NCBI GenBank assembly: GCA_944390145.1
Contig: CALXOY010000022.1
Span: 1-38,298, forward strand
DNA length: 38,298 nucleotides
Reading direction: 5' to 3'
DNA from: an uncultured Duodenibacillus sp.
Lineage (GTDB): Bacteria > Pseudomonadota > Gammaproteobacteria > Burkholderiales > Burkholderiaceae_F
The position numbers and the translations under genes were made by a program. Shown piece after piece: positions 12,936 through 17,196 of the stretch (the first letter of the stretch is position 1; the number at the start of each line of letters is the position of its first letter). A model generated the notes under the pieces. That model was given only the letters and a program-made list of their open reading frames with translations, searched no databases and was not told the DNA's origin.

Positions 12936-14312
12936 ATGGCCAAGGCGAGGATTCATTACGTCTGCTCCGAATGCGGCGGCTCGACCGTCAAATGGCAGGG
13001 CAAGTGCCCGCACTGCGGCGCCTGGAACACCATGCGCGAATTCCGGGAGCCGACGGCCTCCCAGGCGCGCTTTAGCGCCTCGCGCAGGCAGACGTCGCTT
13101 GCTGACAGCGCCGGCGTCGTGGATCTTGCCGAGGTGCAGGCCTGCGAGGTGCCGCGGCTGCTCACCGGCATCGGCGAATTCGACCGCGTCATGGGCGGCG
13201 GCCTGGTGCCGGGCGGCGTAGGCTTGATCGGCGGCGACCCCGGCATCGGCAAGTCGACGCTGCTGCTGCAGGTGCTCTACCGCATGGTGCGGCAGGGCAG
13301 CACGGCGCTTTACGTGTCCGGCGAAGAGTCGGCCGCGCAGGTCGCGCTTCGCGCGCAGCGCATCGGGCTTGATCCCGCGGGCATGCGGCTGATGAGCGAA
13401 ATCGAACTCGAGCGCATCGAAGCGGAAATTTCCGCCTCCAAGCCGCAGTTCATTGTGATCGACTCGATTCAGACGCTCTTTAGTTCGGCGCTGGATTCCG
13501 CCCCGGGCAGCGTGACGCAGGTCAGGGAATGCTCGGCGCGCCTCACGCGGCTGGCAAAGACCACCGGCGCGGCGCTCATCTTTGTGGGGCACGTCACCAA
13601 GGACGGCGCCCTTGCCGGTCCCCGCGTGCTCGAGCACATCGTCGACACGGTGCTTTACTTTGAAGGCGACACGCACAGCAACTTCCGGCTCATCCGCGCC
13701 TTTAAAAACCGCTTCGGCGCGGTCAACGAACTGGGCGTCTTTGCCATGACCGACCGCGGTCTGCGCGCCGTCTCCAACCCCTCGGCGATTTTTCTTTCCG
13801 AGCACCGCAACGATGTCGCAGGCAGCGTCGTCATGGTGACGCAGGAGGGCTCAAGGCCGCTTCTGGTGGAAATCCAGGCGCTTGCAGACGACTCGCATTC
13901 ACCCGCGCCAAGGCGTCTTTGCGTGGGCCTTGACGGGCAGCGCCTTTCGATGCTGCTCGCTGTGCTGCACCGCCATGCCGGCATCTCCTGCTTTGAAAAG
14001 GACGTGTTTGTCAACGCCGTGGGCGGCGTGAAGATCACCGAGCCCGCCAGCGACCTCGCGGTGCTGATGGCGGTGGTGAGTTCGCTCACCGACCACCCGC
14101 TGCCGCCCGGAGCCGTGATTTTCGGGGAGGTGGGCCTCACCGGGGAAATCCGGCCGATTCCGCGCGGTCAGGATCGCTTGAAGGAAGCCGCCAAGCTGGG
14201 CTTTTCAATGGCCATCATCCCGAAGGCCAATGCGCCGAAAACGCCGATTGAAGGCCTGACGGTGAAGGCCGTGGACCGGCTGACAGACGCGCTTTCGGTG
14301 ATCCTCGGTTGA
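12936..14312 (+). CDS. radA: DNA repair protein RadA
   Basis: RecA-like ATPase that promotes branch migration of recombination intermediates. Seen in order: an N-terminal four-cysteine zinc finger (CSECGG...CPHCGAW, residues 10-28), Walker A GGDPGIGKSTLL at about 99-110, the RadA-specific KNRFG motif, and a C-terminal Lon-protease-like domain (DLAVLMAVVSS, FGEVGLTGEIRPI, AIIPKANAPK). 458 residues is the usual length. Starts 13 bases after alr. Just after the stop, GC-rich inverted bases (CCGC...GCGG) precede a T-poor stretch, so termination is uncertain. Confidence 0.97.
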   Translation: MAKARIHYVCSECGGSTVKWQGKCPHCGAWNTMREFREPTASQARFSASRRQTSLADSAGVVDLAEVQACEVPRLLTGIGEFDRVMGGGLVPGGVGLIGGDPGIGKSTLLLQVLYRMVRQGSTALYVSGEESAAQVALRAQRIGLDPAGMRLMSEIELERIEAEISASKPQFIVIDSIQTLFSSALDSAPGSVTQVRECSARLTRLAKTTGAALIFVGHVTKDGALAGPRVLEHIVDTVLYFEGDTHSNFRLIRAFKNRFGAVNELGVFAMTDRGLRAVSNPSAIFLSEHRNDVAGSVVMVTQEGSRPLLVEIQALADDSHSPAPRRLCVGLDGQRLSMLLAVLHRHAGISCFEKDVFVNAVGGVKITEPASDLAVLMAVVSSLTDHPLPPGAVIFGEVGLTGEIRPIPRGQDRLKEAAKLGFSMAIIPKANAPKTPIEGLTVKAVDRLTDALSVILG

Positions 14313-14446
14313 AAAACCCGCCGCAGCAAGCGGTTTGTCCTGCAAGGTCGGGAATGCTGATAGACTGTGCGGCACATCAAAGGCGCCGGGCCCGTCCCGA
14401 CTGTTTGCGCCTTGTTTTTGACGAATTCTTGTGAGATTTCCTAAAA

Positions 14447-15292
14447 ATGCGCATTACGAAGCTTCTTTCGCTTGACAGCGAACCCGCAAAGCCGATTCTT
14501 GACCGTGCCAAGCCGATCAGTCTGACGTTTATCGAGCGTCATCAGCTTCCCGCCGCCTTTGTGGTGGACGGCGAGTCGATCGAAAACGCCCTCGGAGAGG
14601 TGCGTCCCCTCGAAGTGGGCGACGTGCTTGTCGACGAAAAGGGCGGCTTCTACAAGATTGAAGCTCCGGTCGAACAGATTTTCAAGGTGACGGGCGACCT
14701 CAACCTCATGCAGGAGGCCGTGTATGCCCTGACCGCACGCGGCGTGCGCGTGGCTCAGACCGAAGACGGCTTTGCCGTGGCGGGCATCGAGCAGTACAAG
14801 GCCATGCTCGAGAGCGTCGGCCTGACGGTGACTGCCGCCGACGAACCCTTCATCCCCGTTCCGCTGCCCCGTCCGCATCACGGCGGCTGCGGTTGCGGCT
14901 GCGGAGGCCATCACCATCACCACCACCACCATCACCATGGCGATGGGGAATGCGGCTGTGGCTGCGGCGGACATCATCACCATGATGATGACGAATGCTG
15001 CTGCGGCGGCGAGGGCCATCATCACCACGAAGAAGGCGAATGCTGCTGCGGCGGCGAAGGTCATCATCACCACGGTGAAGGCGAATGCTGCTGCGGCGGC
15101 GAGGGCCACCATCACCATGATGAAGGTGAGTGCTGCTGCGGAGGCGAGGGCCATCATCATCACGAAGAAGGCGAATGCTGCTGTGGCGGCGAAGGCCATC
15201 ATCACCACGGTGAGGGCGAGTGCTGCTGCGGAGGCGAAGGCCATCATCACCACGGTGAAGGCGAGTGCTGCTGCGGCAAGGACAAGAAGTAA
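14447..15292 (+). CDS. UreE-like metallochaperone with His/Cys-repeat tail
   Basis: Residues 1-145 follow the UreE two-domain layout: an N-terminal part (ISLTFIERHQLPAAF, EVGDVLVDEKGG, KIEAPVEQIFKV) and a ferredoxin-like part (LNLMQEAVYALTARGVRV, IEQYKAMLESVGLTV, ending DEPFIPVP). UreE hands nickel to urease. Here the conserved GNRH, whose His binds Ni at the dimer interface, reads ARGVRV, so that ligand is missing. The tail (about 146-281) is one long metal-binding stretch: CGCGCGG, a run of ten His, a second CGCGCGG, then seven 15-residue units of the form HHHH-x3-E-CCC-GG-EG. No urease, hydrogenase or nickel-transport gene lies in the window, and it stands alone after radA, possibly from its own promoter (TAGACT near 14361). 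Likely role: storing or delivering Ni(II), Zn(II) or Cu(I). Fold call is good; function is inference. Confidence 0.8.
   Translation: MRITKLLSLDSEPAKPILDRAKPISLTFIERHQLPAAFVVDGESIENALGEVRPLEVGDVLVDEKGGFYKIEAPVEQIFKVTGDLNLMQEAVYALTARGVRVAQTEDGFAVAGIEQYKAMLESVGLTVTAADEPFIPVPLPRPHHGGCGCGCGGHHHHHHHHHHGDGECGCGCGGHHHHDDDECCCGGEGHHHHEEGECCCGGEGHHHHGEGECCCGGEGHHHHDEGECCCGGEGHHHHEEGECCCGGEGHHHHGEGECCCGGEGHHHHGEGECCCGKDKK
14972..15277 (+). repeat. Seven tandem 45-bp coding repeats (His4/Cys3 units)
   Basis: Units begin at 14972, 15017, 15062, 15107, 15152, 15197 and 15242, each exactly 45 bases. Each encodes four His, three variable residues (DDD, EEG, GEG or DEG), Glu, three Cys, Gly-Gly and Glu-Gly; the last is cut short by GKDKK and the stop. 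Codons differ between units at third positions (for example GGCGGCGAG versus GGAGGCGAG), so the array is not freshly copied, but repeat number could vary by slippage. Confidence 0.95.
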
Positions 15293-15340: not shown

Positions 15341-15425
15341 GCGGACGTGGCGAAATTGGTAGACGCACCAGATTTAGGTTCTGACGCTTTAATGCGTGTC
15401 GGTTCGAGTCCGACCGTCCGCACCA
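15341..15425 (+). tRNA. tRNA-Leu (anticodon UAG)
   Basis: 85 bases including encoded CCA. Acceptor stem GCGGACG/CGTCCGC, D-arm GCGAAATTGGTAGACGC, anticodon loop TTTAGGT with TAG, a class II variable arm (CGC-TTTAAT-GCG), and T-arm GTCGG-TTCGAGT-CCGAC. The long variable arm and UAG make it leucine for CUA-type codons. The anticodon stem CCAGA/TCTGA has a C27-A43 mismatch where E. coli has C-G. It marks the left edge of a small accessory island. Confidence 0.97.
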
Positions 15426-15648: not shown

Positions 15649-16173
15649 CTACACAGGTTTAGCATCACTGATAAAAAATTTCACGATATTGCCGTCTTTG
15701 TCCAACTGGCTTTTGGCTGTGAATGAGATTGGAGAATCTGACGAAAACGCAACAATGTATATGTTGTTCTTTTCCAGCCTGAAGCTCGGATCAAGGATTT
15801 CCGCCGCCGTCCGTGGGGAGTCATCGTCGTCATCGAGAAGGCTGATTTTGCAGGTTCCGGCTATCTTGTCAAGCTCCGTGATGGTACCCGTATAGGTGCC
15901 CGACTCCTCGATCGACGGAGTTTCCTGCGAAACCAGGTAGCTCTTAAGCTCCTTGTCTGCAGTAACAAAAGGCTGGCTTTCACCAGGCTTGAAAAGTGAA
16001 ATTTTTCCACAACTTCTGCCAATCGGTGACATGGCCTCAATGCTGGCCTTCGTCAGGCCATCTGACATTTTTTCGATTGTTTTAAGGAGCGATTCGGAAA
16101 TTTTTTGCGAGTTCTCCATCAGCTCCTTGTTTTGAGACAGGGTTTGCTCAAGGGCTTTTGCGAGATGTTCCAT
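15649..16173 (-). CDS. Unrecognised protein, coiled-coil N-terminus
   Basis: 174 residues, possibly N-terminally truncated. Seen: a Gln/Glu/Lys/Ser-rich helix (about 1-45: LAKALEQTLSQNKELMEN, ISESLLKTIEKMSDGLTKA), a central SPIGRSCGKISLF segment, then a beta-rich C-terminal half (SGTYTGTITELDKIAGTC, a DDDDD run, AAEILDPSFRLEKNN, and KSQLDKDGNIVKFFISD) that looks like a small barrel. No signal peptide or membrane helix. Lower GC and different codon use than its neighbours suggest transfer. The ATG at 16173 has its AAGGA only one or two bases away, and the frame stays open upstream to the transposon end at 16194, so the true N-terminus may have been cut off by that insertion. I do not recognise a function. 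Confidence 0.6.
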   Translation of the reverse strand: MEHLAKALEQTLSQNKELMENSQKISESLLKTIEKMSDGLTKASIEAMSPIGRSCGKISLFKPGESQPFVTADKELKSYLVSQETPSIEESGTYTGTITELDKIAGTCKISLLDDDDDSPRTAAEILDPSFRLEKNNIYIVAFSSDSPISFTAKSQLDKDGNIVKFFISDAKPV

Positions 16174-16193: not shown

Positions 16194-16330
16194 TGACAGC
16201 TCCCCGTCCGAATTCTGAGGAATTCGGGCGAGGCTTCTCGCTTCATCGAGGACTGCTTCGATGTCTCGAAGACTTACACCCTCTCGACGAGCTACGCGGG
16301 CAAAACCCGCTTCAAGACGGTCTGCCCAGC
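16194..16330 (-). ncRNA. Possible omega-RNA/right-end region of the TnpB remnant
   Basis: In TnpB elements the guide RNA is made from the 3' end of tnpB through the right-end hairpin into flanking DNA. This stretch has the expected layout: the tnpB tail, GC-rich inverted bases and the 8-bp right-end hairpin. Its start is a guess. With tnpB broken it could only act with a TnpB supplied from elsewhere. Confidence 0.3.
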
Positions 16331-16696
16331 CGCCTTCATCATTCGAATGCCTTCCGCCCGAACGTTCTTCGAGGCATTTCGATCGCGGTCATGCCGGGCA
16401 CCGCACTTCGGGCAAGCCCATTCCCGCGTCGCCAAATCCAGCTTGTCGAGCTTGTGCCCGCGGGCCGAACAAGTCTTCGAACTCGGAAAGAACGTGTCGA
16501 TGCACACGAATCGCTTTCCGGCTCTCTTCGCTCTGTAGGCAAGCATTCGGTAGAGTTCGCCCCAGGCGGCGTCGGCAATGGCCTTCGCCAGGTGCGGATT
16601 CTGCATCATGTTTTTGATTTTCAGGCTCTCCGCGCAGACCGCTTGGTTCTCGTCAATCAAACGCTTTGAAAGCTTCTTCATTTCACCGCCCATCAT
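16292..16696 (-). pseudogene. tnpB: TnpB, C-terminal fragment
   Basis: About 134 residues matching the end of IS605-type TnpB, an RNA-guided nuclease encoded by transposons. Seen: LSKRLIDENQAVCAESL (RuvC-II Glu), HLAKAIADAAWGEL, the zinc-ribbon region FFPSSKTCSARGHK and ACPKCGARHDRDRNAS (RuvC-III Asp). The RuvC-I domain with its Asp and the whole N-terminal half are missing; homology begins at about 16684, and the open frame further upstream (to 16885) is unrelated. The first zinc knuckle reads CSARG instead of CxxC, so a ligand is lost as well. Inactive. Confidence 0.85.
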
Positions 16697-17196
16697 AGCC
16701 TTTACAGAACATGCAAGATGCCCTAGGAGCGGTGTTGAACACCCGAAATATAGCGAATTTTTGGCATAAGCCGGCCTATTTGTGATGCAAAGCCGACTGT
16801 AGGCTGGCAGTTTTACAGCGGCCTGCCTATCGCAGCATTTGCTTTCCTCTATGCGAAAGAGAAACGGCCGCCTTTTGGCATACAATGAGCCGCGAAAAGG
16901 ATTTCGGCTTGCAGCCTGCAGACGTCCGGATATGCTTCGGGCGCGCAGCGCAATGAGCTGCTTTTCATGTCCGGCGGCTTTGCCTGTAAGTCCGCCGGAG
17001 GCTTGCGCCTTTCGTTGAAAAGGCCTTGTCAGAGGCGGCGTCCTGTGCGAAAAGGAAGATTCTCACAGGTGCGTTTTACGGTCTGCCTGCGGCGAAAGCC
17101 GGCGGGAGGTCCGTCACCCCGAACAAATTGTTTTTGAATATAGGAGGCTGCGCCCGGCTCCTGACGCACGTTCCGGAGTCTTTGCGCTGATGAGAT
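16697..17196. other. Non-coding stretch between TnpB remnant and rubrerythrin
   Basis: About 500 bases with no gene I can support. It contains a good hairpin, GCCGGCCTA (16770-16778) against TAGGCTGGC (16800-16808), followed by AGTTTT, which may be a weak terminator. A TACAAT at about 16881 could be a -10, and further short G/C-rich inverted repeats lie around 16890-17000. The rubrerythrin leader (17000-17196) has only a GGAG (about 17175), far from the ATG. Confidence 0.4.

Follow-up and report, generated by a model that had tools for sequence, protein, structure and literature searches.

The gene described here encodes a protein in which a UreE-like domain that, judged from its alignment, is without the known metal site of UreE is joined to a long tail of repeated His and Cys blocks, and it is a conserved gene of four genera, not an oddity of one genome. 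It lies at positions 14447..15292 (+ strand) of a stretch of 38,298 nucleotides from an uncultured Duodenibacillus sp. (contig CALXOY010000022.1), hereafter the window, and was delimited from its translation (281 aa, ATG start) and its orthologues. Our preferred explanation, to which we assign a probability of roughly 45%, is that a UreE has been repurposed as a nickel, or perhaps general metal, store and as a donor for hydrogenase maturation; nickel would most likely be the physiological metal. A role in metal storage or delivery had been proposed in an earlier note on this DNA, and as a reading it is supported by the composition of the tail. Each ingredient of the protein is known, and their combination is new: the literature on UreE, on UreE-like and orphan proteins, and on hydrogenase and nickel in Duodenibacillus and Sutterella yielded no description of it, within a scope that left out the majority of subscription papers and preprints.

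Architecture and conservation of the His/Cys tail

Profile and alignment comparisons place the UreE-like domain at approximately residues 1-138 (14447..14860, + strand), a region devoid of the GNRH His and of any well conserved His/Cys column. The metal tail begins, in translation, with CGCGCGG, a run of ten His, GDGE and a second CGCGCGG (14873..14971, + strand), and continues as seven 45-bp units of the form HHHHxxxECCCG(GEG) (14972..15289, + strand), which were delineated with TRF and a unit search. The HHHHxxxECCCG unit starts were located at 14972, 15017, 15062, 15107, 15152, 15197 and 15242, a spacing of exactly 15 residues, and the full form HHHHxxxECCCGGEG was complete in six of the seven, the final unit ending in GKDKK. 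The His run, both CGCGCGG motifs and the seven 15-residue units were therefore present as first described, the count of seven being that of the assembly, a draft genome of 98 contigs listed as 88% complete. TRF recovered both a 45-bp array of 7.8 copies (score 459) and a higher-order period of 135 bp (score 522), the latter being the stronger, so that the tail grew by the copying of units and of triplets of units, in agreement with the duplication of a 45-bp unit that had been suggested. When the tail's own residues were shuffled 2000 times, no more than one unit arose. Across the seven-unit array pS was 0.51, compared with a pN of 0.088, and a His or Cys residue was kept at 49 of 49 codons, several of which differ synonymously. 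A search of plasmids with the whole protein returned no match, and the best hit in a PDB search with the tail alone had an E-value of 0.43.

An antisense open reading frame of 270 aa (14441-15253, - strand) arises from the biased codon usage of the repeats in the tail. In many relatives, similar antisense frames score higher than the sense frame, and mis-annotation is possible there. Because antisense frames score highly in the tail, gene calling by codon score misses most orthologues, and such calls were used for neighbours only.

A tail is present in each of the 28 orthologues (of 33) that lie clear of a contig end; it measures 91-219 residues and contains 26-61 His and 14-38 Cys, the combined His and Cys fraction being 42-54% in every case; the other five, G094 among them, run off their contigs inside the tail. 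For instance, the tail of G097 spans 116 residues, and relatives assembled as single contigs have tails of 216 (G033), 187 (G090) and 103 residues (G095). Repeat number, for which a comparison between strains had been proposed, was found to vary between species, as does the sequence of the unit itself (HHHHGEGECCCGGEG, HHHHHDDEECGCGCGG, HHHHDEDGDECCCG and others), but the composition stays and no complete orthologue has lost its tail. In five close species pairs, dN/dS ranged from 0 to 0.083 in the core, and from 0.009 to 0.059 in the tail of four pairs, the fifth tail pair being saturated. On this sequence evidence, the tail is, like the domain, under protein-level selection, by which it is kept as a metal-ligand polymer.

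Relationship to UreE and the search for urease

The NCBIfam UreE models matched all 19 aligned members of the family, with the window member falling below every curated cut-off, and an hhalign comparison with 11 ordinary UreEs gave a probability of 98.9 (E = 2.6e-17) over 128 columns. Searches of the PDB with the profile recovered the UreE entries 1gmu (E = 4e-8) and 1ear (E = 5e-5), given in PMC13044922 as those of K. aerogenes and S. pasteurii UreE. Pfam matches were weak, with UreE_C detected in 9 of the 19 members, UreE_N in two, and neither in the window member. Judged from these comparisons, the domain is homologous to UreE across its N- and C-domains, and the relationship recognised in the earlier note was borne out. 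The missing nickel-binding His that it had pointed out proved to be general, in that the GNRH His position is occupied by 'RG' (Gly) in 19 of 19 aligned orthologues, whereas NRH is present in all 11 ordinary UreEs of the same family. In known UreEs, this His is described as lying at the dimer interface and being used for nickel (PMC13044922). Given the replacement by Gly, and as neither His nor Cys exceeds 7 of the 19 rows in any column of the domain alignment, the domain has lost its known metal ligand. Apart from the homologous domain, the protein resembles UreE in having a metal-rich C-terminal tail of variable length. The tail of UreE is however a short His tail, with eight His reported for P. 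mirabilis (PMC13044922), whilst that of the present family extends over 91-219 aa and contains Cys blocks.

A further departure from UreE is that neither a full urease nor UreG was found to accompany the gene. Searches of 21 genomes from the four genera, 19 of them bearers of the gene, yielded no full urease, and 18 of the 21 were without any urease alpha match. The short, partial alpha matches in G003 (24.1 bits), G005 (25.8 bits) and G008 (20.5 bits), the first two of which are nominally over the 23-bit cut-off, compare with 150-200 bits for the ureases of other genomes and are probably other amidohydrolases. UreG was over its cut-off in none of the 21 genomes, and no second, ordinary UreE was detected at an E-value of 0.001 in any of the 33 bearers. 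A urease operon elsewhere in the window's genome (listed as 88% complete) with its own ureE, which the earlier note had named as a finding that would speak against its proposal, was likewise not found, there being neither a urease alpha match nor a second UreE.

Distribution and gene neighbourhood

Searches with a profile of 19 orthologues (E <= 1e-50) returned one match each in 33 of the 67 genomes of the family searched, and none of the 33 contained an in-frame stop. The bearers were confined to four genera, namely g1, the window's own genus Duodenibacillus (8 of 10 genomes), g9 (8/9), g2 (5/5) and g11 (12/12), and the view of the protein as an oddity of one genome is not sustained by this distribution. 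The three genomes of these genera in which no orthologue was found are 80-87% complete. A search among close relatives had located three loci (in G009, G006 and G004), all of genus g1 and placed by NCBI in the family Sutterellaceae. Weak profile matches (7e-7 to 2.5e-13) were obtained in ten further genomes of the family; in these ten and in G032, NRH was present in 11 of 11 and ureG or urease matches lay on the same contigs, which identifies the 11 as ordinary UreEs. When 369 genomes sampled across the class, which may or may not include other members of the four genera, were searched with up to ten candidates scored per genome, only the window's own protein reached 1e-14.

Another UreE-like protein, His-rich at both ends and without NRH, was observed at L157:5677-6249 in G051, a genome of a different family in which urease is present. 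Its gene adjoins an aminopeptidase N-like gene (assigned by eye), and it represents a second case of a stray UreE.

The conserved upstream neighbour is radA (12936..14312, + strand, in the window), identified by eye and by the domains it encodes, which immediately precedes the gene on the same strand in 30 of the 33 orthologues. As to the exceptions, only 142 bases remain to the contig end in G006, radA is nearby and convergent in G009, and none was found upstream in G033. Downstream in the window is a tRNA-Leu (15341..15425, + strand), about 0.9 kb beyond which lies an ORF with a Cas12f1-like TNB domain (16292-16885, - strand), by eye a TnpB-type transposon remnant; a 174-aa ORF with DUF7946/DUF7947 matches is located at 15649-16173 (- strand). 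Inspection by eye of nine loci revealed no hyd or hyp genes and no genes for nickel transport beside the orthologue. The upstream stretches of the 33 orthologues were also searched for GTATGA-N16-TCATAC, which we take to be a NikR-like box, and none was found with up to two mismatches. In G027, a putative Znu-type metal ABC transporter cluster was read by eye, rather than by family search, downstream of the gene (L076:11089-13571, reversed-strand coordinates), and proteins similar to those of this cluster also occur in G089.

Hydrogenase, nickel handling and candidate functions

The earlier note had seen no urease or hydrogenase in the window, and none was seen in the part examined; elsewhere in the genome, however, hydrogenase and hyp genes do occur. 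These comprise a [NiFe]-hydrogenase large subunit (C1:15336-16931), the small subunit, HypA and HypB, together with ORFs alongside that were assigned by eye to HypF, HypC and HypD. The large subunit was matched at 1e-30 in 30 of the 33 bearers, the exceptions being G007, G095 and G096, which had no hydrogenase match at this threshold and no HypB over cut-off. G007 gave a weak match to the hydrogenase model (2.3e-4) close to the end of a contig, in an ORF resembling the one that adjoins hypA in its relatives, and it may therefore be incomplete. The G096 assembly is a draft of 89% completeness, and G095 is a single contig, listed as 85% complete, which has kept its tail with 26 His and 22 Cys. 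On account of these three bearers, hydrogenase cannot be shown as the only client.

HypB of the bearers starts with MCxxCGCG and carries 6-34 His ahead of the P-loop in all 18 cases examined (of 33). A similarly His-rich HypB (20 His, MCxxCGCG start) is encoded by G005, where the orthologue was not found, and His-rich HypBs without the gene were observed in 11 of 11 cases from seven other genera. In the genera g5, g6 and g14, which are without the gene, HypB is bare, having no CxxC and no His-rich N-terminus in six of six genomes (L083, L084, L152, L153, L155 and L156), and that of g16 is intermediate between the two forms; the bare HypBs may possibly mean that a related clade has lost nickel storage. 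Hydrogenase is present and the orthologue absent in g6 and g14 (genomes 99-100% complete), and the g5 genome (80% complete) encodes HypA and HypB with no hydrogenase match at 1e-30. In the HypB tree, the 18 bearers and G005 form one side of a branch (93/82), such that the co-occurrence amounts to one evolutionary event and not many. A Fisher test of the gene against hydrogenase gave p = 0.03, which carries no weight because the bearers are one clade.

NicO nickel permeases were found in none of 36 genomes of the four genera. The SlyD/FKBP-like candidates, which were the best matches of the SlyD model with none over its cut-off (G003 gave no match), had no Cys and at most two His in their last 45 residues in 25 of 25 cases (18 bearers and 7 genomes in which the gene was not found). 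The candidate of the window's genome had no Pfam match at 1e-5, and a true SlyD may have been missed among the candidates. The possibility that the orthologue replaces a missing SlyD tail is weakened, as tail-less candidates occur in bearers and non-bearers alike.

Under the preferred explanation, a UreE freed from its urease role would have become a cytoplasmic metal store and donor. The UreE-derived domain would probably dimerise and serve for scaffolding and docking, and the long tail, in which blocks of His alternate with blocks of Cys, would, given its composition, bind many divalent metal ions and could hand nickel to the HypA/HypB pathway that matures [NiFe]-hydrogenase, thereby filling the place held elsewhere by His/Cys tails on SlyD, HspA or HypB. 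A Duodenibacillus is described as a strong rumen H2 oxidiser that expresses a NiFe group 1d hydrogenase (PMC12613782). The SlyD proteins of E. coli and H. pylori possess a comparable unstructured tail of His, Cys and acidic residues, which is believed to hold a nickel store for [NiFe]-hydrogenase and is reported as important for nickel release from HypB (PMC7055735). That tail is carried on a prolyl isomerase, whereas the one described here is longer, built of tandem units and attached to a UreE domain; of the SlyD-type features the His/Cys-rich tail is shared and the FKBP domain is not, the FKBP family being absent from the Pfam matches. HspA of H. pylori, a folded protein of unrelated origin, likewise ends in a C-terminal extension rich in His and Cys; to HspA, nickel sequestration and a role as hydrogenase chaperone are ascribed (PMC4671568), and Hpn, Hpn-2 and His-rich HypB have been proposed as nickel stores of hydrogenase or urease bacteria (PMC7055735, PMC4671568). 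When a His stretch was added to H. pylori UreE, HypB was no longer needed in urease maturation (as told in PMC2770081). Hpn differs from the present protein in being small and His-rich without a UreE domain, and His-rich HypB in that its His stretch is N-terminal and on a GTPase. HspA differs in being a GroES homologue, and its tail is presumably shorter than the tail here.

Several observations count against nickel supply to hydrogenase, namely the three bearers without hydrogenase or HypB, the lack of nickel genes beside the orthologue, the loss of the nickel-transfer His of UreE, the hydrogenases of g6 and g14 without the gene, the absence of NicO (0/36) and the His-rich HypBs of other genera without the gene; the Cys-rich blocks would also suit Zn, Cu or Cd. 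Nearly as likely is that the protein is a general metal buffer or detoxifier, similar to a metallothionein, whose tail would bind soft and borderline metals, Zn, Cu and Ni among them, without selectivity, with the UreE domain as an inherited scaffold only. Metallothioneins also bind several metals, through clusters of Cys, but have no folded UreE-like domain, and His runs are not typical of them. Non-selective buffering is consistent with G095, where gene and tail persist without hydrogenase or HypB matches, with the mixed His/Cys ligands, with the nine loci at which no nickel gene was recognised and with the putative Znu-type cluster near the gene in G027. It accords less well with a scaffold homologous to a nickel chaperone, with a nickel enzyme in 30 of 33 bearers and with the metal-binding HypB N-termini in 18 of 18 bearers examined.

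It is unlikely that the protein serves as a donor for a different metal enzyme, whether another nickel, a cobalt or a zinc enzyme; this would explain its retention in G095, G096 and G007, but no such enzyme was identified, the nickel enzymes searched being urease and hydrogenase. A relic in decay, left over from a urease operon since lost and bearing a functionless tail expanded by slippage, would fit the variable repeat number and the fact that no full urease was found, but is highly improbable given dN/dS values far below 1 in core and tail (five pairs, one tail pair saturated), 42-54% His and Cys in 28 of 28 complete tails and no stops in 33 matches. Least probable is an assembly artefact in the repeat, which might be suspected from the 98-contig draft and from the five of 33 orthologues that break within the tail, since tails of 216, 187 and 103 residues are present in G033, G090 and G095, respectively, each of which is assembled as a single contig; relic and artefact were both rejected on the selection and conservation data.

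Returning to a nickel store and donor, a fuller version can be offered tentatively, in which the protein would be a new nickel-storage protein whose UreE fold, without its known metal site, provides the scaffold for a fast-turning-over but composition-locked His/Cys tail. Such a protein would supply hydrogenase in H2-oxidising gut and rumen bacteria with metal-tail-less SlyD-like proteins, sharing the load with HypB. A urease chaperone has here been kept for another use where no urease was found, its metal binding having apparently been transferred from the folded domain to a tail of repeats, and the name 'urease accessory protein UreE' borne by the matching NCBIfam models would mislead in organisms without urease. 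If the protein does feed hydrogenase, it is relevant to the way in which bacteria of the Duodenibacillus type satisfy their need for nickel whilst scavenging H2, an activity for which a part in reducing rumen methane has been proposed (PMC12613782).
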